Shown piece by piece: positions 27,841 to 39,566 of a DNA stretch of 64,000 bases. Every line of letters begins with the position of its first letter. The first letter of the stretch is position 1. Made by a program: the position numbers and the translations under genes. The notes below the pieces were generated by a model that worked only from the letters and a program-made list of their open reading frames with translations, had not been told where the DNA came from and did not search any database. Source of the DNA: Luteitalea pratensis (lineage in GTDB: Bacteria > Acidobacteriota > Vicinamibacteria > Vicinamibacterales > Vicinamibacteraceae); assembly GCF_001618865.1 (NCBI RefSeq), contig NZ_CP015136.1, positions 2,205,001-2,269,000 of the forward strand, in the 5' to 3' direction.

Positions 27841-27865
27841 GCAGCAATTTGAAATTTGAAGCTGA

Positions 27866-27912
27866 TGCGTCCGGTGCCCGGTACCCGGTGCCCGGTACCC
27901 GGTACCCGGCAT
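27866..27912. repeat. CCGGTACCCGGTGCCCGG tandem repeat
   Basis: Five to six 9-bp units of the CCCGGTRCC type between the peptidase stop and the reductase start. Same family as 29893-29965 and the block inside the GNAT gene. Confidence 0.85.
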
Positions 27913-27921
27913 AATCGATCC

Positions 27922-28566
27922 ATGACCATCGGATTCATCGGCGCAGGACACATCGGCAGCGTTGTCGCGCGTGCGGCGATTGCGGCCGGACATTCGGTCG
28001 TGCTCAGCAACTCTCGCGGACCCGAGACGTTGGCCGACCTGGTCACGCAACTCGGTCCGTCTGCGAGGGCGGCGACGCCCAGTGACGCCGCGCGAGCCGG
28101 CGCCATCGTGGTGGTGACGATTCCGCTCCGGAACATCGCAGATGTGCCGATCGAGCCACTCGCGGGCAAGGTCGTCATCGACACCAACAACTACTACCCG
28201 CAGCGCGACGGCCACATCGCCGAACTCGACGACGAGTCGACGACGACCGCAGAACTACTGCAGCGCCACCTGCCGACGTCGAAGGTGGTCAAGGCCTTCA
28301 ACCACATCTACGCGGCGCAGATCACGACCGACGGCACGCCTGCGGGCACGCCGAACCGTCGTGCGCTGGTGATTGCGGGAGACGATGCGGCGGCGAAGGC
28401 GACGGTGACGCAACTGCTCGACCAGTTCGGGTATGACACGGTGGATGCCGGCCCGCTGGCCGAAGGATGGCGCATCCAGCGCGACACGCCCGGGTACGGC
28501 CCGCGGCGCAACGCCAAGGAACTCCGCGCGGATCTCGCAGCCGCGAAGCGGTATCGCGATATGTGA
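27922..28566 (+). CDS. NADPH-dependent F420 reductase-like oxidoreductase
   Basis: 214 residues; ATG 27922 is chosen because the upstream extension is repeat-encoded. The Rossmann motif MTIGFIGAGHIGSVVARAAI with SNSRGPETLADL resembles the NADP-binding start of F420H2:NADP+ oxidoreductase (Fno-like, often annotated NADP oxidoreductase coenzyme F420-dependent). VVVTIPLRNIADVPIEPLAG, VIDTNNYYPQRDGHI, VVKAFNHIYAAQI and GDDAAAKATVTQLLDQFGYD fit as well. Whether F420 is used is unknown; many bacterial members reduce other substrates with NADPH. Single gene. Confidence 0.85.
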   Translation: MTIGFIGAGHIGSVVARAAIAAGHSVVLSNSRGPETLADLVTQLGPSARAATPSDAARAGAIVVVTIPLRNIADVPIEPLAGKVVIDTNNYYPQRDGHIAELDDESTTTAELLQRHLPTSKVVKAFNHIYAAQITTDGTPAGTPNRRALVIAGDDAAAKATVTQLLDQFGYDTVDAGPLAEGWRIQRDTPGYGPRRNAKELRADLAAAKRYRDM

Positions 28567-28826
28567 CCGGTCACCGGGAACCGGGAATCGGGAACCGGGA
28601 ACCGGGAATCGGGAATCGGGAATCGGGACCGATCGAGAAAAACCGGTGTAGCCGTCGAGCTTGCTCGACGGTCAGCTCGCCGCGGCTTACCGTCCAGCGT
28701 CCAGCGTCCAGCGTCCGGCGTTGTCCACGTAGCTCAGGCAAGTGCTTGAGACCTGAGTCCTGAGTCCTGAGACCTGAGTCGCGCCGTCGAGCTTGCTCGA
28801 CGGGCGACGAGACCGCGGATCGGGTG
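28567..28826. repeat. Dense mixed intergenic repeats
   Basis: In order: GGGAATCGGGAACCGGGAA units (28568-28628), the GCCGTCGAGCTTGCTCGACGG palindrome (about 28652-28672 and again about 28782-28802), CGTCCAGCGTCCAGCGTCC units (about 28692-28725) and GAGACCTGAGTCCTGAGTCC units (about 28747-28780). No gene. Confidence 0.85.
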
Positions 28827-29513: not shown

Positions 29514-29966
29514 TCAGGGCCATCCGTAATCGAAGGCTCAGGTCTGAGGTCTCAGGTCTGAGGTCTCAGGTCTCAGGTCTCAGGTCTCAGGTCTCAGGTC
29601 TCAGGCTCAAGCTCAGGGCTCAGGGTAACCTGGGGCTTGAGACTTGAGACCTGAGACTTGAGGCGGAAGATTGAGCCAGTCTCACACACGCGGCGCGTTG
29701 CGCGCGTCTGACATACATGGAAAACGCCGAACGCCTAACGCCGAACGCTGAACGGCAAGCCCAAGGCCCAAAGCGGCCGCGGCTCAACCTGACCGTCGAC
29801 CTGACTTGTCCGCCGTAGACTTGGCGAAGGTGGATGGTCGACGGCACCACTGTCAGGGGAGAACGTAGGCGTCGAGCTTGCTCGACGCGACTCCGGACTC
29901 CCGGTTCCCGATTCCCGGTACCCGGTACCCGGCACCCGTTGCCCGGTACCCGGTACCCGGTGCCCG
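29514..29966. repeat. 450-bp spacer filled with repeats
   Basis: A long GGTCTCAGGTCTGAGGTCTC array with at least ten units (29533-29620) passes into GAGACTTGAGACCTGAG (29636-29660). Then come GAACGCCTAACGCCGAACGC units (about 29727-29752), the CTGACTTGTCCGCCGTAGAC / TTGGCGAAGGTGGATGGTCGAC element (29791-29840), the GCGTCGAGCTTGCTCGACGC palindrome (about 29868-29887) and CCCGGTACCCGGTACCCGG units (29893-29965). No gene seen. Confidence 0.85.
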
Positions 29967-30641
29967 TCAGCCATCCCGCGGTGCGCGTACGACGCGCTCG
30001 GTGCGTGCGGAGCGTTCGTCCGACCACGCCCGGAACGTCAGCGTCGCCGCGCCGAGTTCGACCACGTCGCCGTCGGCCAGGATGCGCGGCTCGGCGATCC
30101 GCTCACCGGCCACGAATGTCCCGTTGCTCGACTCGAGGTCGGCGATGGTCGTCTTGTCGGTGCCGACGTCCACACAGGCGTGCCGCCGCGATACCCCAGA
30201 AGCCTCCACCCAGACATCACACCGCGGATCGCGCCCGACGACGTTCTCGCCGGCCGCGAGCGGGAAGGCGTGGTCGTTCCGCACCAGCCAACAGAGGCGC
30301 TCCTCGGTGCGCGTCTCCGGCCGCACGGCCGCGAGGGTCTGCGCCGGTCCGCTGAACGCATAGCCAACGCGGTGCACCGTGCGGACGAAGCTGGCCTGGC
30401 GCGAGTCGTCGCCGAGCACCTGGCGAATCTCGGCGATCACCACGCTCAGGTTGGCCTCGCCCACGAACGTGTCCTGCCAGACGTGGTCGTGGATCTCGCG
30501 CTTGCTCACCACCGTCGGACGACGATCGAGCAGCAGCGCGAGCAGGTCGAATGCCTTGGGCGAGAGGTGCACGCGGGCGCCCGCGTCGAGCAGTTCGCGC
30601 GTCTCGGTGTCGAACGTGAAGCGGCCGAAGGCAACCCTCAT
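29967..30641 (-). CDS. Winged-helix (OmpR/CadC-type) DNA-binding protein fused to an FHA domain
   Basis: 224 residues from ATG 30641. Residues 1-95 are an OmpR-type winged helix without a receiver: FGRFTFDTETRELLDAG, LSPKAFDLLALLLDRRPTVV, EANLSVVIAEIRQVLGDD and FVRTVHRVGYAF. Residues ~125-210 are an FHA domain: AGENVVGRDPRCDVWVEASG, VSRRHACVDV, DLESSNGTFVAGERI and LADGDVVELGAATLTF, with the phosphothreonine-binding GR, S..RH and NG elements. It could couple Ser/Thr phosphorylation to transcription. It is divergent, by 89 bp, from the FHA/phosphatase/kinase operon, whose shared promoter region it may control. Confidence 0.88.
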   Translation of the reverse strand: MRVAFGRFTFDTETRELLDAGARVHLSPKAFDLLALLLDRRPTVVSKREIHDHVWQDTFVGEANLSVVIAEIRQVLGDDSRQASFVRTVHRVGYAFSGPAQTLAAVRPETRTEERLCWLVRNDHAFPLAAGENVVGRDPRCDVWVEASGVSRRHACVDVGTDKTTIADLESSNGTFVAGERIAEPRILADGDVVELGAATLTFRAWSDERSARTERVVRAPRDG

Positions 30642-30730
30642 GAACGCTCTGCGAATCCTTGGAAATCCCTTGGGACTTCGTGACGGGGTCCGGTGCATAG
30701 TACCCGACGACAGCGGAGGTAGACGGCGGA
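30642..30730. promoter_or_regulatory. Divergent promoter region of the FHA/kinase locus
   Basis: The 89-bp gap lies between the winged-helix/FHA gene and the FhaA-like gene. It holds an AT-richer CATAGT (-10-like, about 30696-30701) and GGAGGT near 30715 as the likely ribosome-binding region of the rightward operon. No clear palindrome was found. Confidence 0.35.
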
Positions 30731-31642
30731 ATGACAGCGGGGAAGGCTCCAAGCGGTCGGGAGATCTGGAAGGCGGTTCGCGAGGAACTCGTGCTGAACC
30801 TGTACGCGCTGCCGTTCAGCACGATTGCGCCGACCGTGTACCACGTCTACCTGCATCCGGAGGACTTCGACGCCATCGAAGGCATCTCGGGCACGCTGAC
30901 CGAGCAGATCCGGCAGGCCCTCACCGAAGAGGTCACTCGCCTCAACCGCGACATGGGCGGTCGCGTGAAGACCATCATGGCGCGCCTGCTCGAGCGTGAT
31001 CGGCTTGCTCCGGTCGAAATCCCGCCCGGCGGCTGGGAGGTGAACCTGCGCCGCGATCCCGATGGCGAACTCGCCCGCGGCCAACTCGGGATCGTCTCGA
31101 CACTCGCCATGCCCGCGCCAGTCGAGTACGGCGGCACCCCCACCACACGCATCGTCCGCAGCATCGTCGGCGCGTCTGGCCGGGCGGCAACGGTGAGCCA
31201 CGTGCCGCAGCAGGCTGGGTCTGCCGTGCCGGGGGCCGCGATGCCATCTGATGGCGGCGTGCGCGAGACGGAGGGCCGCTCGAGCCCCGACCGCGCCCGC
31301 CTCACGTACTCGGACGACCAGGGTGCGCACACGTTCATGATGCGCAAGGACACCGTGTCCATCGGCCGCGGCGGGAGTGCCGTGTGGGTGGACGTGCAGG
31401 TGATCACGACCGCACGCGTCTCACGCGAGCACGTCCGGATTCGTGGCGACGCCTCCGGCGGGTTCTTCGTGCAGGACGTCAGCCTGTGGGGTACCACCGT
31501 CGACGGCGCCCCGATCCCGCCTGCGGTGAAGGGACCCGAGGGCGTGGCGCAGCCAGGCCCCGAGCAGCCGCTCCCGGCCCGTGCCCGCATCGGCCTTGCC
31601 GACGCGATCACGATCGACTTCGAGGCCCTGGGCGCGCCATGA
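30731..31642 (+). CDS. FhaA-like protein: DUF3662 plus FHA domain
   Basis: 303 residues. The N-terminal ~110 residues (GREIWKAVREELVLNLYALP, APTVYHVYLHPEDFDAIEG, LTEQIRQALTEEVTRLNRDM) resemble the DUF3662/FhaA N-terminal domain, which in mycobacteria binds cell-wall proteins. A variable linker is followed by an FHA domain (about 195-300: TVSIGRGGSAVWVDVQV, RVSREHVRIRGD, GFFVQDVSLWGTTVDG). FHA domains bind phosphothreonine, so it is a likely substrate or adaptor of the kinase four genes on. First gene of the rightward operon; its stop overlaps the next start (ATGA). Confidence 0.85.
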   Translation: MTAGKAPSGREIWKAVREELVLNLYALPFSTIAPTVYHVYLHPEDFDAIEGISGTLTEQIRQALTEEVTRLNRDMGGRVKTIMARLLERDRLAPVEIPPGGWEVNLRRDPDGELARGQLGIVSTLAMPAPVEYGGTPTTRIVRSIVGASGRAATVSHVPQQAGSAVPGAAMPSDGGVRETEGRSSPDRARLTYSDDQGAHTFMMRKDTVSIGRGGSAVWVDVQVITTARVSREHVRIRGDASGGFFVQDVSLWGTTVDGAPIPPAVKGPEGVAQPGPEQPLPARARIGLADAITIDFEALGAP

Positions 31643-31728
31643 CCTGGCTGCACATTCTCTTCCTTGTCGCCCTGCTGTCGGCCGTGGCTTGGATTGGCTG
31701 GCTTGCCTGGATGTTCGATCGTGGCTGA
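31639..31728 (+). CDS. 29-residue single-pass membrane peptide
   Basis: A small open frame begins with an ATG inside the ATGA overlap with the FhaA-like stop and ends with a TGA eight bases inside the following PP2C gene. It encodes a 29-residue peptide starting MTWLHILFLVALLSAVAWIG and ending WMFDRG: one continuous hydrophobic helix with a charged C-terminal end. The tight overlap on both sides argues that it is translated and not a gap. It might be a membrane partner of the phosphatase, kinase or SEDS protein. No family recognised. Confidence 0.55.
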   Translation: MTWLHILFLVALLSAVAWIGWLAWMFDRG

Positions 31729-33409
31729 CAGCGCGACCATTCCCGTGCTGCTCTCGGCTGCACTCTCCGACCCGGGACGCGTCCGTACGAACAACGAGGA
31801 CCTGCCCATCCTCGATGCCGAGCGCGGCGTCTTCGGCGTGATTGACGGCGTCGGCGGACACGCGGCCGGCGAACTCGCCGCCGCCATCGCCCGCGACGTG
31901 ATCCTGCAGCGCCTGGCGCGTCCGCTTGGCACGCCCGCGGAACGTGTGCGCGAGGCGATCGCCATCGCCAACAACGAGATCTTCCGTCGCGCTGCCAGCG
32001 AGCCCACGCTCGCCGGCATGACGTGCGTCGTCACGCTGGCGGTCGTGAGCGACGGGCGCGTCACGGTTGGCCACGTCGGCGACAGCCGGCTCTACAAGCT
32101 GCGTCCGTCGGGGGTGTGCAAGCTCACGCACGACCACTCACCGGTGGGCGAGCGCGAGGATGCGCACGAGATCGGCGAGATCGAGGCCATGCATCACCCG
32201 CGGCGGCACGAGGTCTTTCGTGACGTCGGCAGTGCGCTGCGCGACAAGGACGAACCTGACTACGTCGAGGTGATCGACGACACGCTCGAAGACGACGCGG
32301 CGATCCTGGTGTGCAGCGACGGGCTGACCGACATGATCCCGTCGGCGACGATCGAGCGCGTGGTGCGCCTGCACGCGGGTGATGCGGGGGCGGTGACGAC
32401 GGCACTCGTGGCTGCGGCCAACGAGGCGGGCGGTCGAGACAACGTCACGGTGGTCTACGCCGAGTCCCCGGGGTTCGCCGCCGCGTTCAAGGCCGGCACG
32501 CCCGCCATACCCGTGAGTGATGTGGCCCCAGCGGCTGATGCTGCGGGCGGGGGCACGGCTGGCCGATCGCTCGGCGCACGCCTGCTGGCCGGCCGCACCA
32601 CATGGTTCATCGTCGGAGCCGTCCTCGGGGTGCTCGGCGCGCTCCTCCTCGCCTGGCGACTCTCCACGGAGGTGCCCGTGGGCGGACGCACCATCGTTGC
32701 CGCGCCCCAGGCGTCGGAGACGGTCGGCACGCTGGCCGCGGCTGTGCAGACCGCCCACGCAGGCGACGTCATCCGCCTCGAGCCCGGCACGTATGCCGAG
32801 TCGATCGTCGTCCCCGAGGGCGTGTCGCTCCGAGCCCGCGTGCCTGGCAGCGCGGTGTTCGTCCGGCCGCCGGGCGCGACCGGCGAGTGGGTCGCCCTCG
32901 TCGCGCCGGGAGACGGCGGCGCCATCTCCGGCCTCCGGATCACCTCGACCGCGGAGGCGCCGGTGCAGGTGGGCGTGCGAGTCGACGGGCAGGGACGATC
33001 GATCGAGTTGTTGCAGGTCGATGGCCCCGTCACGGCAGGCGTGGACATGCTCGAGGACGCCTCGGCGACGCTGCAGGGCAGTCATTTCGCGGTCGCCGGT
33101 CCGGCCATCGTGCTGGCGGCGCGAAGCCAACTCGACGCCACCGGCAATGTCTTCGTGGCGCCCGCAGGGAGCAGCCCCGTCGTGCCCGCGCTGTCTCGCC
33201 GCGCCGCCGCCGTGGCAGCGAGCCGCACCGCACAGCCGGTGGCCCCGAGCATCTTCGCCATGCGCCTCGAAGACGGCGCCCGCGTCGTCCTCAATCGCAA
33301 CATCTTTGCCGGCTTCGGCCCGACGCCGATCAAGGGCCTGACCGATGCCGAGCGGGAACCCATGCGTACCGCCAACGTCGTCGTGTCTCCGGACCTTTCC
33401 ACCCGCTGA
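31721..33409 (+). CDS. PP2C-type Ser/Thr phosphatase with membrane segment and beta-helix ectodomain
   Basis: 562 residues from GTG 31721, overlapping the 29-residue ORF. The PP2C domain (1-250) is complete: RTNNEDLPILDAERGVFGVI, IDGVGGHAAGELAA, VGHVGDSRLYKLR, LVCSDGLTDMI and GGRDNVTVVYAE supply the metal-binding aspartates. A membrane helix (TTWFIVGAVLGVLGALLLAW, about 290-310) follows. An external region of about 230 residues (AGDVIRLEPGTYAESIVVPE, GVSLRARVPGSAVFV and further short strands) resembles a pectate-lyase-like right-handed beta-helix. Mycobacterial PstP has a much smaller outer part. The ectodomain may sense cell-wall glycans. It dephosphorylates targets of the adjacent kinase, by analogy. 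Confidence 0.85.
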   Translation: MADSATIPVLLSAALSDPGRVRTNNEDLPILDAERGVFGVIDGVGGHAAGELAAAIARDVILQRLARPLGTPAERVREAIAIANNEIFRRAASEPTLAGMTCVVTLAVVSDGRVTVGHVGDSRLYKLRPSGVCKLTHDHSPVGEREDAHEIGEIEAMHHPRRHEVFRDVGSALRDKDEPDYVEVIDDTLEDDAAILVCSDGLTDMIPSATIERVVRLHAGDAGAVTTALVAAANEAGGRDNVTVVYAESPGFAAAFKAGTPAIPVSDVAPAADAAGGGTAGRSLGARLLAGRTTWFIVGAVLGVLGALLLAWRLSTEVPVGGRTIVAAPQASETVGTLAAAVQTAHAGDVIRLEPGTYAESIVVPEGVSLRARVPGSAVFVRPPGATGEWVALVAPGDGGAISGLRITSTAEAPVQVGVRVDGQGRSIELLQVDGPVTAGVDMLEDASATLQGSHFAVAGPAIVLAARSQLDATGNVFVAPAGSSPVVPALSRRAAAVAASRTAQPVAPSIFAMRLEDGARVVLNRNIFAGFGPTPIKGLTDAEREPMRTANVVVSPDLSTR

Positions 33410-33426
33410 CAGGCTGGAGACCACGA

Positions 33427-35457
33427 ATGTCCTGGCAGGTCGCAGGTTACGAAACGGATGCAGACAAGCCCTTCGACCAGGGCAGCTTCGGCACCGTGTG
33501 GCATGCGCGGCGATTGAGCGACGGCACGCGCGTCGCGCTCAAGCTGGTGTTGCGCGACCACGCGGCCGACGCCGTCGAGCGCATCGAGGCCGAGCGACGC
33601 GGCGCAATGCTGCAGCGCAGTTTCCACGATGCGCACGGGATGGTCCCGGCGGTCCATGACGTCGGCTACGACCTGGATGGTGACCTGTATATCGCCATGG
33701 AGTTGATCCAGGGTGGGTCGCTCTCGGATTTGATCGCGACTGGCGCACTCGAGTCACGTGCGGCTGCCGATCGCGCGACGGCGATCTGCAGCTTCCTGGA
33801 GAAGGCGCACAGTTTCTCGACGACGATCGAAGGCGAGCGGTACGACCGGCTGGTCCACGCGGACCTGAAGCCGGGACACATCTTCGTGCGCGACACCGGC
33901 AACGTCATCGTCCTCGACTTCGGCATCGCCAAGGCACTCGACAAGTCCAAGCCGCTCACCACCAACAACTGGGGCACCTCCGCGTACATGTCGCCGGAGC
34001 GCCTGCTCGACGGACGCGTCGACGAGCACGTCGACTTCTGGTCGCTCGGTGTGATGCTGTACGAGATGCTGGCGGGCCATCGCCCGTACCGCGCCCTGCA
34101 GGCGCCATCGCTCAAGAGCCAGCTCGAACGCGCCATTCGCGGCAATGCGCCGCGCGAGCCGTTGCCGGAAACGGTGCCGGCGCCGCTGGTGGCCATCGTC
34201 AACAAGCTGCTCGCCTATCAGCCGGACCGGCGGTACCCGAGTGCAGGGACGGTACGAGCCGATCTGGCCTTGTTCCTCGGCGGCGGGCGGCCTATCGCCC
34301 TCGCCGAATACGACACGCCGGCAACCACCCGCGTCGACGCGCCGCGCGACGTGGACGACGAGGAAGCGCCTGCCTACGCTTCTGTGGCCTACGGTGCCGA
34401 AACGGAGCGTCGTCCCCAGGATCTCGCGCTTGCCGTGACGGGCGCCGTGCCGTCCACCGATCCGCTGCCGCTCATGCCGCCAGCCCTGCCAGGCGGCATG
34501 GCCGCAGACGTCCCAACCACGGCTATCGACGTACCGGTCGAAGGGGGTACGGCGGCCCGTATCGCGACGGCCTCGTCTCCGGTACCGCGGCCCCGACGCA
34601 CGCGTCGGCTATTGTCAGCGGCGGCGGCATTGCTTGCCTTGTACGTCGGCACGTCCGAGGCAGTGGCGTGGATCGGCGCGGAACGCTTCCGTGACGTCGT
34701 CAGCACGATCGACGGTCCTGCGCTTGCGACCGCCGAAGACAGCTACGACCGCGTCGCGTCCACCGGTCCGTTGGACCTGGCGCTGCGCTGGCGAGTCGAT
34801 GGCCGCCTTCAGTCGCACCTGGTCGGCCTCGCCAACCGGGTGATCGAGGACTACCGTCACGAGCAGCCGTCGCTGTCGCTGTCGGACTGGAAGCAGGCGC
34901 AGGAGGCGCTGCGCTGGAGCCTGCGTCTGGCGCCTGGCGATCGCGAGGCCCGGGCACGCCTGCAGACGTGCGAAGCGCACATCCTGCGGATCTCCACGAA
35001 ACCTGGCCGTTCCGATACGACGCAAGCCACGTATCGCCGGGCCATCGATCGTTTTCGGGACGCCGCGCGACTCGATCCCGGATCGTACGACCCATACCTC
35101 GGTATCACGCGTATCGCCGTGTACAACCTCGTGCCGGCCGACGTGGAACTTGCGTCGCAGGCGATGGCGGATGCCGAGAAGCGCGGCTACTCACCGGGCC
35201 GTCGCGAACGCGCGCTGCTCGGCGACGGGCACATGCGTCGTGGCGAGGTACTGCGTCACGAGGCACGCAACGTCTCTGGCACTCAGCGCACGCACGCGCT
35301 CGAGCAGGCCCGCGACAGCTTCCAGGCGTGCATCGAGGCGTTCGAGCCCATCCTGGGGTTCGCCAACGCTGCCAGGAACATCGAGACCTGCAAGGCCCAG
35401 GTGGCGCTCGTCGAGAAGGAAATCGAGAATGCGCAGGCCAAGGAGAGCGAGTCCTGA
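33427..35457 (+). CDS. Membrane-anchored Ser/Thr protein kinase
   Basis: 676 residues from ATG 33427. Kinase domain (about 1-285): Gly-loop DQGSFGTVWHA, Lys39 in VALKLV, catalytic loop HADLKPGHI with Asp146, LDFGIAKA with Asp164, GTSAYMSPERL and DFWSLGVMLYEM. The usual HRD Arg is Ala, and the metal-binding Asn of DLKPxN is His151, so its mechanism or regulation may be atypical. A Pro/Ala-rich linker leads to one membrane helix (LLSAAAALLALYVGTSEAV, about 395-415) and an outer, helical TPR-like domain (ALRWSLRLAPGDREARARLQ, YRRAIDRFRDAARLDPGSYD). It lies between the PP2C and SEDS-PBP genes, overlapping the latter by 1 bp, and is the likely PknB counterpart. Confidence 0.88.
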   Translation: MSWQVAGYETDADKPFDQGSFGTVWHARRLSDGTRVALKLVLRDHAADAVERIEAERRGAMLQRSFHDAHGMVPAVHDVGYDLDGDLYIAMELIQGGSLSDLIATGALESRAAADRATAICSFLEKAHSFSTTIEGERYDRLVHADLKPGHIFVRDTGNVIVLDFGIAKALDKSKPLTTNNWGTSAYMSPERLLDGRVDEHVDFWSLGVMLYEMLAGHRPYRALQAPSLKSQLERAIRGNAPREPLPETVPAPLVAIVNKLLAYQPDRRYPSAGTVRADLALFLGGGRPIALAEYDTPATTRVDAPRDVDDEEAPAYASVAYGAETERRPQDLALAVTGAVPSTDPLPLMPPALPGGMAADVPTTAIDVPVEGGTAARIATASSPVPRPRRTRRLLSAAAALLALYVGTSEAVAWIGAERFRDVVSTIDGPALATAEDSYDRVASTGPLDLALRWRVDGRLQSHLVGLANRVIEDYRHEQPSLSLSDWKQAQEALRWSLRLAPGDREARARLQTCEAHILRISTKPGRSDTTQATYRRAIDRFRDAARLDPGSYDPYLGITRIAVYNLVPADVELASQAMADAEKRGYSPGRRERALLGDGHMRRGEVLRHEARNVSGTQRTHALEQARDSFQACIEAFEPILGFANAARNIETCKAQVALVEKEIENAQAKESES

Positions 35458-38400
35458 TGCGCATCATCGACACTGCAGGCGCGCGCGCCGCCACGGCACG
35501 TCCACGTTCGGCCACCGCGAGGCGCACGGCAAACGTCGAGGCGCTTGGACTCGTCGCCGCCTCCATCGTCATGGTGTTCGGGCTCGGCCTGACGACGTGG
35601 GCACGCCTCGGCGCGAGTGCTGCCGTCGGCGCGGGACGCACCGTGCATCTGCGCACGCTCAACTCCGCTGCCGACCTCCTTCCCGTACTGACGATGGTGA
35701 CGGGCGAGGCCGAACGCCAGGCCATCGCCGAGCGCGTCTACCGCCGCGCCACCGATGTCACCGTGCCGATCGACCACGTCGGGGCGTTGGCCGGGATCGA
35801 CTTGTCCGAGGCCGAACTCAAGGCAGACCGGAGACTCACCCGGGCCCGGGCGCGGCTGGCAGGCAGGGCCGGGACCGGGGCAGTGCGGCTTCTCACCGCC
35901 GCGGACCTGGCCGCGTTGAAGACACACGTAATCGTCCGCACACCGCGTGAGTACGTCTCGCGTCTCGGCAGGTCGATGGCCGCATTTTTTGCCCTCTTCT
36001 GGATCGCCCACCTCGTCCGCCGGTGGCGCGGTGCCGACGACGATCCCGCGTTGCTGCCGATCCTGCTGATGCTCTGCGGCCTCGGCTTCATGAGCATGAT
36101 TGCGTTGCGCGATCCGCTGCGAGACGGGCTCATCGCGTCGACCTTCGTCAGTGGCGTCTGCGCCGGCCTCGTCCTGCTCCTGATCGCGTCCGAGATCGAT
36201 TACGAATCGTCCGCTCTCCGCCGGTCTGTGCTCCTGCCACTGGGCGCGGCGCTTGCACTTGCGGCGCTCCTGCTCGTCTTCGGGTCCGGGCCAGGCAGCA
36301 GCGGGGTCAAGGTGAACCTGTTCGGCGGACAGCCGGTGGAAGTCATCCGGCTGCTGGTGGTGTTTGCCATTGCAGGGGCGCTCGCGCGGAGGTTCGAGCT
36401 GCTCCGCGAGCTCTCCGAACCAGCCACCGCAGCGCGTCCATGGCTTGGGCTCGTCGGTCTGCCTCGTTGGCGCGACGTGCGGCCCGTCGTGGCGAGCATG
36501 GCGCTGGTGCTCGCGTTCTTCTTCCTCCAGAAGGACCTCGGCCCGGCGCTCGTGCTTTCGTGTGTCGTGATCGCCCTCTATGCGATCGCGCGCGGTCGGC
36601 TCGCGTTCGTGTTCGTGGGATTCGGAATGCTCGCCGCCGGCTTCGCGGTGGCATACGCGATTGGATTCCCTCCGACAGTGGGCCAGCGCGTCAGCATCTG
36701 GGCCGATCCCTGGAACAACGGCGTGCCCGGTGGCAACCAGATCGCGCACGGCCTGTGGGGAATGGCAACGGGCGCGGCGTGGGGGAGCGGTCCGGGACTT
36801 GGCAGCCCGCAGTCGATTCCGGAGGGCCACACCGACTTCGTGCTCGCGGTGCTCGGCGAACAGCTTGGTTTTGTCGGCGTGCTGGCTGTCCTGGCGCTGT
36901 ACGCGCTGCTGGCGTGGCGGTGCCTGCGCGTCTCGCTGCGCGCGCCGGGCGACTACAGCGCCCTGCTCGGCATCGGCGTGACCCTGGCGTTGGTCGTGCA
37001 GGCATTCGTGATTGGCGGCGGGTTGCTTGGCGTGCTGCCCCTCACCGGCGTGGTGACGCCCTTTCTCAGCTACGGGCGCTCGTCGATGCTGGCCAACTGC
37101 CTGGCCACCGGCGTGGTGATGGCGGTGGGACGGCGGCGCGGGCCGGTGCGTCTGCACCTCCAGCAGCCGGTGCGGGTGCTGGCCACGATCCTGGCGGTGC
37201 TCGGCGGCGTGATCGCCTCTCGGGCGGCGTGGGTGCAGGTCGTCGAGGCCGATACGCTGGCGACGGCGGCGAGTCTCAGCGAACAGGGCGATGGCGGCTA
37301 TCGCTTCGAGTACAACCCGCGACTCGTCGCCGCGGCGCGCACGATCGATCGCGGCACGATCTCCGATCGCCATGGCGTCGTCCTCGCCACCAGCCTGCCC
37401 GGGGAGACTGCAGGCATCGACGCGGCGTTTACCAGGGCGGGGCTTGTTCGAGAACGCACCTGTGCGCCGGACGAGCCACGGTGCTACCCGCTGGGGGGCA
37501 TCACGTTCAGCGTGCTGGGCGACTGGGCCGGGCAGGTGAACTGGGGCGCGCGCAACGCGTCGTACGTGGAGCGTGAACGCGATGCGCGGCTCAAGGGATT
37601 CGACGATCGACAGCGGGTTGTCGACGTCGTGCATCCCCAGACAGGCGTGCACGGCAGGACCATCCGGCGCGACTACTCGGCGCTGCTGCCCCTGGTCCGC
37701 CATGGTGCCGCATCGACGCGCCCAGAGGTGGCGCTCCTGCTCGGACGTCCGCGCGACGTGCGCGTGACCCTGGATGCGCGTCTGCAGCAGCGCGTGGCGC
37801 GGGCCTTGCGCACCGGCATGGAGCGCGGCGCGCACACACGCGGCGCGGCCGTCGTGCTCGACGTCGAGACCGGCGACGTGCTCGCATCGGTGAGCTATCC
37901 ATGGCCGTCCGGCATCGAGGGCACCATGGCCGCGTCCGACGATCGGCATGTGGACGCGTTGCTCGATCGCGTGCGGTACGGCGTGTATCCGCCGGGCTCC
38001 ACGTTCAAGCTGCTCGTCGCCGCTGCCGCACTACGCACCCATCCCGAACTGCAGACCGTCACGCACATGTGCGTGCGCCTGCCTGGCGGACGCGTCGGCA
38101 ACACCATCAGGGGCTGGACCCGCCCGGTGCGCGACGACGTGAAGGACGTGACGCCGCACGGCGCGGTCGACCTGCACGAGGGCCTCGTGGTCTCCTGCAA
38201 CGCCTACTTCGCGCAGCTCGCGATGCAGCTCGGTCCGCGTCCGCTGCTCGACGCGGTGTCGCTCTTCCAGATCGAGGCGGCGCAGCCATCCACGGTCGCC
38301 GCCCTGCGCAACACGCTGCCGCATGCCGCGTACGGCCAGGCCGACGTGCTCGCCTCACCGCTGAAGATGGCCCGCGTCGTGGCCGCGATCGCTGGCGACG

Positions 38401-38756
38401 GCCGCGTCCTGCCCGCGCGCTGGACCGAAGCCGACGCTGATGCGGCCGAAGACGCGCCGCGGCTCCTCAGCGAGGCAGACGCGCGTCGCCTCGCGCAGTA
38501 CATGCGCGACGTGGTGACCTCCGGCACCGGCCGGACCTTGCTCGGCAATGCCACGCCGATCGCAGGCAAGACGGGTACCGCCGAAGTCGATGGGCGCCCC
38601 GCCCACTCGTGGTTCATCGGCTTCGCGCCGTATGGCGGATCGCGACCGATCGCGTTCGCGGTGCTCGTGGAGAACGCGGGCTATGGCGCGCGTTCCGCCG
38701 CCCCGGTGGCCGGCGAGATCGTTGACGCCGCGCGTGAGCTCGGTCTGTTCAAGTAG
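35457..38756 (+). CDS. SEDS (RodA/FtsW) glycosyltransferase fused to class B penicillin-binding protein
   Basis: 1099 residues with no internal stop or frameshift. Residues ~20-590 are a polytopic SEDS protein with FLQKDLGPALVL (catalytic-type Asp360), EGHTDFVLAVLGEQLGFVG and PLTGVVTPFLSYGRSSML. An unusual soluble insert (about 55-165) follows the first helix. Residues ~600-1099 form a class B PBP: TISDRHGVVLATS, active-site Ser848/Lys851 in PGSTFKLL, SxN as Ser913-Cys-Asn915 in VVSCNAYF, and KTG at 1038 in AGKTGTAEV. SEDS proteins polymerise lipid II and bPBPs cross-link the strands; here both are one chain, whereas most bacteria use separate RodA-PBP2 or FtsW-FtsI pairs. It lies in the FHA/PP2C/kinase operon. 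Confidence 0.92.
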   Translation: MRIIDTAGARAATARPRSATARRTANVEALGLVAASIVMVFGLGLTTWARLGASAAVGAGRTVHLRTLNSAADLLPVLTMVTGEAERQAIAERVYRRATDVTVPIDHVGALAGIDLSEAELKADRRLTRARARLAGRAGTGAVRLLTAADLAALKTHVIVRTPREYVSRLGRSMAAFFALFWIAHLVRRWRGADDDPALLPILLMLCGLGFMSMIALRDPLRDGLIASTFVSGVCAGLVLLLIASEIDYESSALRRSVLLPLGAALALAALLLVFGSGPGSSGVKVNLFGGQPVEVIRLLVVFAIAGALARRFELLRELSEPATAARPWLGLVGLPRWRDVRPVVASMALVLAFFFLQKDLGPALVLSCVVIALYAIARGRLAFVFVGFGMLAAGFAVAYAIGFPPTVGQRVSIWADPWNNGVPGGNQIAHGLWGMATGAAWGSGPGLGSPQSIPEGHTDFVLAVLGEQLGFVGVLAVLALYALLAWRCLRVSLRAPGDYSALLGIGVTLALVVQAFVIGGGLLGVLPLTGVVTPFLSYGRSSMLANCLATGVVMAVGRRRGPVRLHLQQPVRVLATILAVLGGVIASRAAWVQVVEADTLATAASLSEQGDGGYRFEYNPRLVAAARTIDRGTISDRHGVVLATSLPGETAGIDAAFTRAGLVRERTCAPDEPRCYPLGGITFSVLGDWAGQVNWGARNASYVERERDARLKGFDDRQRVVDVVHPQTGVHGRTIRRDYSALLPLVRHGAASTRPEVALLLGRPRDVRVTLDARLQQRVARALRTGMERGAHTRGAAVVLDVETGDVLASVSYPWPSGIEGTMAASDDRHVDALLDRVRYGVYPPGSTFKLLVAAAALRTHPELQTVTHMCVRLPGGRVGNTIRGWTRPVRDDVKDVTPHGAVDLHEGLVVSCNAYFAQLAMQLGPRPLLDAVSLFQIEAAQPSTVAALRNTLPHAAYGQADVLASPLKMARVVAAIAGDGRVLPARWTEADADAAEDAPRLLSEADARRLAQYMRDVVTSGTGRTLLGNATPIAGKTGTAEVDGRPAHSWFIGFAPYGGSRPIAFAVLVENAGYGARSAAPVAGEIVDAARELGLFK

Positions 38757-38762
38757 GGACCC

Positions 38763-39566
38763 ATGGACGTGAATCGACTGGCTGGCTTCGGCAAGGATCT
38801 CCACTCACGGATCCGCACGTTCTTCAACACGCCGCTGGACGCCAACGCGACGCCGCTCGAGATCGGCCAGGCGGTGCTGGACCAGGTGGAACGCCAGGTG
38901 CAGCCCGTCGCCCGCGGCCGCCGGGTCTTCCCGTTTGTCGGTCTCGCGATCCGCGTGCGCACCAACCCGGCGTCGAGCGCGGCGATGATCGCCGCGTTCG
39001 AGGACTTCGCCACCCGCGTGCGTGAGCGACTCGCCGAGGTCCGGTGCGAGGCGCCGCGGCGTCTCGACGTCGATGTCGAGTGCCTGGAGGTGGCGCCGGC
39101 CTCCTGGCCAGAGGCCCGTGTCTTCGACGTGAGCTACATCGCCGACGAGGCTCTGCCCGTCAAGAGCCCGGCGCGCGGTGGCGGCACGGCGCCGGTGGTG
39201 CACATCACGGTGGTCGCCGGTACAGCAGTGGAGTCGTCATGCCGCTTCGCCGAGGGCACGGTGTCGATTGGCCGGTGCGCCGATCCAGCCGACGACATGG
39301 GGTACGTCCGTCGCAACCGCATCGCCTTCCTGGATGTCGTCGACGGCATCAACGAGACCGTCGGACGCGCCCATGCCCGCCTGCGCTGCGACGCGGTAGC
39401 GGGCGAGGTCCGGCTGTTTGACGAGGGCAGCCGCAACGGCACGTCGATCCTGCGAGACGGCGACGTCATTGCCGTGCATCGTCGCGATCCGCGCGGGGTC
39501 CGGCTGCGCTCGGGTGACGAGATTCGCCTCGGGCGGGCCCTGCTCCGAGTCGAGATCGATGGGTAA
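38763..39566 (+). CDS. Second FhaA-like protein: DUF3662-like N-terminus plus FHA domain
   Basis: 267 residues, 6 bp after the SEDS-PBP gene. The N-terminal ~100 residues (FGKDLHSRIRTFFNTPLDAN, LEIGQAVLDQVERQVQPVARG, VFPFVGLAIRVR) are a DUF3662-like domain. The C-terminal FHA domain (about 160-265) shows AEGTVSIGRCADPADDMGYV, NETVGRAHARLRCD, VRLFDEGSRNGTSILRDG and GDEIRLGRALLRVEI. It differs from the first FHA protein and closes the operon. It is probably a phosphothreonine reader linking the kinase to the cell-wall synthase. Confidence 0.85.
   Translation: MDVNRLAGFGKDLHSRIRTFFNTPLDANATPLEIGQAVLDQVERQVQPVARGRRVFPFVGLAIRVRTNPASSAAMIAAFEDFATRVRERLAEVRCEAPRRLDVDVECLEVAPASWPEARVFDVSYIADEALPVKSPARGGGTAPVVHITVVAGTAVESSCRFAEGTVSIGRCADPADDMGYVRRNRIAFLDVVDGINETVGRAHARLRCDAVAGEVRLFDEGSRNGTSILRDGDVIAVHRRDPRGVRLRSGDEIRLGRALLRVEIDG

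Follow-up and report, generated by a model that had tools for sequence, protein, structure and literature searches.

Luteitalea pratensis, a member of the Acidobacteriota (order Vicinamibacterales), carries an operon which probably specifies a third, accessory peptidoglycan synthase together with a kinase-phosphatase-FHA circuit of its own that gates it. It lies within a stretch of 64,000 nucleotides (positions 2,205,001 to 2,269,000 of contig NZ_CP015136.1; hereafter the window) of the 7.48-Mb single-contig genome (genome label G000), where six tightly packed genes occupy positions 30731-39566 of the plus strand. These encode, in order, an FhaA-like protein, a 29-amino acid membrane peptide, a PP2C phosphatase, a Ser/Thr kinase, a SEDS protein fused to a class B penicillin-binding protein (PBP; bPBP for class B), and a second FHA protein (FHA2). 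This reading is supported by the gene content, by intact catalytic motifs and by the recurrence of the set, which is conserved in numerous acidobacterial loci and also on one Bacteroidota plasmid. The arrangement suggests a wall synthase which can be switched by phosphorylation; we infer the synthase and kinase activities, the phospho-control, its direction and its signal. A sequence-only reading had taken the DNA for that of an Acidobacteriota-like genome, and its relatives are indeed acidobacterial.

A single-chain SEDS-PBP protein

The fusion is specified by a single open reading frame (ORF) of 1099 amino acids with no inner stop, so that its SEDS and PBP portions are not separate genes. 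Pfam places the FTSW_RODA_SPOVE domain at residues 229-559 and the Transpeptidase domain at residues 796-1089. The former (PF01098) scores over the cut-off and contains the catalytic Asp of a SEDS polymerase, and the latter (PF00905) is accompanied by the SxxK, SxN and KTG motifs of a class B PBP; no PBP_dimer domain was detected by Pfam at E 0.01. Residue D460 aligns with D275 of Pseudomonas aeruginosa FtsW and D262 of Escherichia coli RodA and is invariant among 11 aligned fusions, as are S848-x-x-K851, S913-x-N915 and K1038-x-G1040. SEDS proteins have their C-terminus in the cytoplasm, and a hydrophobic segment (574-592) links the SEDS half of the fusion to its PBP half. In the AlphaFold model (mean pLDDT 73) the predicted PBP half resembles solved structures with Z values of 34-37 (PBP3, up to Z 36.7); against Mycobacterium tuberculosis PbpA (3lo7) the model gives Z 34.7 and a root-mean-square deviation of 3.3 Å over 341 residues at 31% identity. 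Since the Foldseek and VIA rows shown were taken up by the PBP half, the SEDS half is identified from its sequence. In a designed, otherwise active RodA-PBP2 fusion the D262A substitution in RodA is reported to have abolished polymerisation (PMC6207328); because such engineered fusions are active, the natural one is expected to work.

The genome also carries an mreB-mreC-mreD-PBP2-rodA cluster (L112; L and G numbers are our labels for loci and genomes) and a dcw cluster that includes ftsI and ftsW (L111), mreBCD, mraZ, murG and ftsQ having been recognised by eye from sequence and order. Because canonical Rod and division sets are found elsewhere in the same genome, we regard the fusion as a third synthase, and the proposal of the sequence-only reading that the locus controls wall elongation or division is not supported. 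That the fusion serves, under control of the kinase, as the main synthase of elongation or division is unlikely. Its domains are of the RodA/FtsW and PBP2/FtsI type and knockdown of actinobacterial rodA or pbpA is reported to disturb cell length (PMC6554272), but canonical RodA-PBP2-MreBCD and FtsW-FtsI are present and within its order the fusion was found in four of the seven genomes of the window's family (four of five in the genus, neither of the two sampled in the sister genus), with none in the 29 other genomes sampled.

The signalling proteins and the proposed circuit

M. tuberculosis PknB is the best solved relative of the kinase domain. Downstream of a single transmembrane (TM) helix the kinase is predicted to be all-helical to its C-terminus; Pfam finds no PASTA match in it, the four PASTA matches of the genome being located elsewhere. 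The catalytic Asn is replaced by His in five of the 15 kinases examined (those of the window, L034, L041, L114 and L115) and retained in the other ten. The same five loci bear a divergent gene for a winged-helix/FHA protein.

The phosphatase is membrane-anchored, with one TM helix followed by an ectodomain, and its catalytic and metal-site residues are invariant among 10 aligned homologues. Its C-terminus gives a profile match to parallel beta-helix polysaccharide lyases (PL6 alginate lyase AlyGC, E 9e-7). This likeness to polysaccharide-active beta-helices, together with the patchy distribution of the fusion, would suit a protein that builds or alters some envelope polymer distinct from bulk peptidoglycan, such as a resting-cell layer, with the PP2C beta-helix sensing that glycan; peptidoglycan-synthase motifs are nevertheless kept in both catalytic halves, and we consider this quite improbable.

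Among 14 aligned FhaA homologues all have the FHA domain and 10 have FhaA_N, with R213 and S231 invariant in the 14; 13 of 14 aligned FHA2 homologues have FHA. At the place of the 29-amino acid peptide a one-TM micro-ORF is found in four of nine inspected loci (L034, L035, L037 and L041), the likeness in L035 and L037 being judged by eye. The sequence-only reading had also raised a transcriptional branch through the winged-helix/FHA protein. The gene is indeed present and divergent at the locus, but a homologue divergent from FhaA occurs only in the four nearest relatives (L034, L041, L114 and L115), weak matches in L066 and L044 not adjoining FhaA. Since it stands beside the module in just these five Luteitalea-like loci, we consider it a lineage-specific extra and not part of the core. 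There are three FHA proteins at the locus, one with a DNA-binding domain, as might be expected if the flow were reversed, the synthase reporting the state of lipid II or of cross-linking to the kinase and the FHA proteins relaying it to other targets, for instance the winged-helix/FHA regulator. The restriction of that gene to five loci and the retention of the catalytic residues of the fusion make such a scheme very improbable.

Ser/Thr kinase control of wall synthesis has been studied mainly in Gram-positive bacteria. By analogy with the best-studied counterpart, the PknB-PbpA-FhaA-PstP system, in which PknB is reported to phosphorylate PbpA, FhaA to bind phosphorylated MviN and PstP to oppose PknB (PMC3601408, PMC3989709, PMC6554272), the module would be a synthase with its own kinase-phosphatase-reader circuit. 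One polypeptide would combine a SEDS polymerase with a class B transpeptidase, an additional membrane helix linking the two, and would so lock polymerisation and cross-linking at 1:1. The PknB-like transmembrane kinase, with its helical periplasmic domain, and the membrane PP2C, with its periplasmic beta-helix, may monitor the envelope and determine the phospho-threonine marks, which the FHA proteins would read so as to recruit, activate or restrain the synthase. The occasion would most likely be conditional remodelling or stress and not routine growth.

Table 1. Genes of the locus, in window coordinates
Feature	Position	Strand	Basis
Winged-helix (Trans_reg_C) + FHA regulator	29967..30641; ORF open to 30752	-	Pfam; divergent from operon
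FhaA-like, FhaA_N + C-terminal FHA	30731..31642	+	Pfam FhaA_N 28.1 bits (cut-off 25)
29-amino acid single-TM micropeptide	31639..31728	+	TM prediction; no Pfam match
PP2C phosphatase, GTG start, TM about 296-314, C-terminal parallel beta-helix-like ectodomain	31721..33409	+	Pfam, profile match
Ser/Thr kinase, TM about 395-413, predicted all-helical ectodomain, no PASTA	33427..35457	+	Pkinase 121.9 bits; model m222467befcc7
SEDS-class B PBP fusion, 1099 amino acids	35457..38756	+	FTSW_RODA_SPOVE 163.8 bits + Transpeptidase 123.8 bits
FHA2 (second FHA protein)	38763..39566	+	Pfam FHA

All seven genes are intact ORFs whose coordinates and kinds, as judged by Pfam, agree with those first assigned (Table 1). 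From the coordinates, the genes of the operon are successively separated by an overlap of 4, an overlap of 8, a gap of 17, an overlap of 1 and a gap of 6 nt. As a small correction, the winged-helix/FHA gene likely starts at the ATG at 30641 and not at the TTG at 30752, which leaves about 90 bp between it and the FhaA-like gene. No structured RNA was found in the window at Rfam gathering scores, and no tRNA by ARAGORN. Between the genes to the left of the operon are arrays of repeats spaced at 14 nt (2 x 7), mostly intergenic (window 27857-27923, 28567-28628, 29523-29626 and 29887-29974), of CCGGTAC and CTCAGGT types, with inverted copies too. Lastly, a REP (repetitive extragenic palindromic)-like element around CGTCGAGCTTGCTCGACG is present in three copies (window 28648-28670, 28780-28802 and 29865-29887).

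Distribution and ancestry of the module

The gene association is not unique to this genome, a synteny check having revealed 19 acidobacterial fusion loci, window included (that of G258 is split over two contigs), and one on a Spirosoma plasmid. A kinase gene adjoins the fusion in all 19 acidobacterial loci and PP2C is present in 18 of the 18 holding that side; an FHA gene lies downstream in 18 of 19 (not found in L040; in L034 only 63 residues precede the contig end), and 16 of the 17 loci that cover the FhaA side have that gene (it was not found in L039, and in G051 it lies downstream). The gene-content profiles were trained on these same loci, so that their E-values are only guides. Identity to the window's fusion is mostly 43-77%, with 33% in G059 and 76% in L034, a contig of a metagenome-assembled genome; because the set recurs with fusions mostly this similar, it is beyond chance. 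Gene order differs, being rearranged in G051 and FhaA-PP2C-SEDS/PBP-kinase-FHA in G059. Among 147 flank ORFs of 16 loci no family recurred in more than three loci at E 1e-8, and the module therefore looks self-contained. Six genes flanking the window's operon were scanned for type VI secretion genes, a limited test, and none was found (five belong to unrelated families and one had no match). The distribution of the fusion is patchy: besides the genomes mentioned above, it is found in 3 of 15 genomes of G188's family and 1 of 14 of G051's order.

Outside the Acidobacteriota, plasmid and phage records were searched. In Spirosoma oryzicola (Bacteroidota) a 137-kb plasmid has, in order, FHA, PP2C, two kinases, a 1,323-amino acid fusion and a second FHA gene, this last resting on the record's annotation and a locus-trained profile, with nothing found by Pfam at 1e-3. 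Rhodococcus plasmid pFiD188 (L133, 2496-10010) has DUF4407-kinase, PP2C and FHA genes followed by the SEDS-PBP gene, all in a run on one strand. Two further Rhodococcus linear plasmids (L134, 7489-10329; L135, 7504-10329), from R. pseudokoreensis and WAY2, carry stand-alone RodA-PBP_dimer-PBP2 fusions in a single chain; the stretch read around them shows neither the kinase set nor any kinase or FHA gene beside the fusion. Since the Spirosoma plasmid and pFiD188 are predicted to be non-mobilizable, the idea of active transfer is weakened. Two IMG/VR scans confirmed no viral relative, and of the phage records 40 had some match, but in none did a single place span 80% of the query. Natural SEDS-PBP fusions in one ORF are already on record, the Rhodococcus RHA1 genome paper being cited for them (PMC10449877); among the open-licence literature matches listed, no title or abstract opening describes a module of this kind in Acidobacteriota or Bacteroidota.

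The Acidobacteriota also possess an unfused operon. FhaA_N was found at 51 places in 32 of 297 sampled genomes, and the surroundings were read for 20 of these places: four (L143, L145, L150 and L154) show a complete FHA-PBP-SEDS-PP2C-kinase-FHA operon and 11 show parts of it. The unfused operon of G259 is split between contigs, with FHA-PBP-SEDS on one and PP2C-kinase-FHA on the other (L139 and L141; G259:C1 and C8). A profile of the unfused SEDS protein matched 27 of the 297 genomes at E <= 1e-60 (every one with a top match of 2e-128 or better) and a fusion profile seven, both types occurring together in one genome, G051. One or other type is present in 30 of the 32 FhaA_N genomes and in three of the 265 without FhaA_N, all three having the fusion (Fisher p 2e-35, ignoring kinship; 18 of the 27 unfused-type genomes belong to one family, and the two SEDS types span 6 and 5 families). 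This near-complete co-occurrence in the phylum sample points to this kind of SEDS protein as a likely partner for FhaA. The unfused operon has the same parts as the window's module, in the same phylum, but its PBP and SEDS genes are separate, with PBP first, and its SEDS proteins form their own clade (100/100). Because the PBP gene precedes the SEDS gene, origin of the fusion by simple stop-codon loss in this operon is unlikely.

A SEDS tree of 45 rows is divided by a 100/100 branch. On one side are 14 canonical rows (RodA, FtsW, SpoVE, the two of the window's genome itself and a Rhodococcus fusion) and on the other 31, namely 14 fusions, 10 unfused acidobacterial and five actinobacterial SEDS proteins, the FHA-linked SEDS protein of Monoglobus and the pFiD188 fusion. 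Three of the actinobacterial rows come from pkn operons and two from plasmids on which no complete operon was in view; the branching order within the 31-row side is not settled. Of the acidobacterial single-SEDS rows from L011-L033 only three were kept in this tree, and five fusions, a Listeria RodA and a Rhodococcus fusion were also removed from it. In another SEDS tree, from which ten acidobacterial single-SEDS rows had been dropped beforehand, fusions and actinobacterial SEDS proteins make up one side of a 90/80 branch. The SEDS trees contradict a descent of the fusion's SEDS half from the genome's own RodA or FtsW. In three PBP trees the acidobacterial fusions stay together with that of Spirosoma (96/97; 92/83; 92/97), the last tree having been built after removal of four acidobacterial fusions and one Rhodococcus fusion. 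A single origin of all SEDS-PBP fusions was rejected by the approximately unbiased (AU) test, with p-AU 0.00125 for SEDS (fourteen acidobacterial single-SEDS rows and two fusions dropped) and 0.027 for PBP (the 92/83 tree; three fusions dropped). Fusion therefore probably took place more than once, with caution in view of the long branches. The fragmented G258 fusion was left out of every tree.

Several observations weigh against an accessory synthase under a dedicated circuit. The activity of the synthase and its control are deduced from sequence, and kinase activity is not certain since the catalytic Asn is His in this lineage. In the PBP half of the G059 fusion neither SxxK nor SxN turned up in a motif search, and the fifth genome of the window's genus (G298, in 830 contigs) is without the fusion. 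The link of the fusion SEDS to actinobacterial RodA reaches only the 90/80 just cited, and in the PBP trees the fusion does not group with actinobacterial PbpA. In the remaining five of the 20 places read around FhaA_N, an FHA or a kinase gene was all that was seen. Around the unfused SEDS genes of G051 and G063 no FHA, PP2C or kinase gene of these kinds turned up in the stretches read, nor did any around the corresponding PBP genes of G051, G063 and G309. The linkage is accordingly not strict.

Comparison with known wall-synthesis systems

As the sequence-only reading proposed, and as Pfam and comparison loci from Nonomuraea, Tsukamurella, Actinomyces and Nocardia bear out, the window's operon has the same kinds of genes as the actinobacterial fhaA-fhaB-pstP-rodA-pbpA-pknA-pknB locus. 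Shared are a protein with FhaA_N (DUF3662) and FHA, a second FHA protein and a membrane-anchored PP2C; among 14 control genomes FhaA_N was found only in Corynebacterium glutamicum, and the window's SEDS half and the RodA of actinobacterial pkn operons fall on the same side of the 100/100 branch. There are also differences, of which gene order, the single kinase without PASTA and the ectodomains had not been noted. The actinobacterial order is FHA-FHA-phosphatase-SEDS-PBP-kinase(s) and that of the window FHA-PP2C-kinase-SEDS/PBP-FHA; rodA and pbpA are separate there and fused here; and in place of a set including the PASTA kinase PknB the operon has one kinase, without PASTA, and other ectodomains. 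Its genome, unlike the actinobacterial case, also has MreB-RodA-PBP2. The kinase circuit here accompanies a self-contained one-chain synthase in a bacterium with an MreB-type Rod system, and because that system is also present the specific job of the fusion is open to study by deletion without loss of the main machinery. A natural single-chain SEDS-bPBP protein fixes stoichiometry, which makes it attractive for questions of how polymerisation and cross-linking are coupled and gated by phosphorylation.

The Rhodococcus plasmid fusions resemble the window's in that one ORF contains both domains, but two of the plasmids have the RodA-PBP_dimer-PBP2 type without a kinase set, while pFiD188 has kinase, PP2C, FHA and fusion. 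With canonical RodA-PBP2 and FtsW-FtsI the window's protein shares the aligned SEDS catalytic Asp and the bPBP motifs, yet it is split off from them by the 100/100 branch, is fused, and lies outside the mre and dcw clusters. We tentatively propose that beside RodA-PBP2 and FtsW-FtsI there may be a third, kinase-linked class of SEDS-bPBP pairs, usually accompanied by FHA, PP2C and Ser/Thr kinase genes and sometimes carried on plasmids, which would include members in the Actinomycetota (RodA-PbpA of the pkn operon), the Acidobacteriota (fused and unfused), the Bacteroidota and perhaps the Bacillota (Monoglobus, with an FHA gene), and which may have been fused more than once, presumably for phosphorylation control of a complete switchable synthase.

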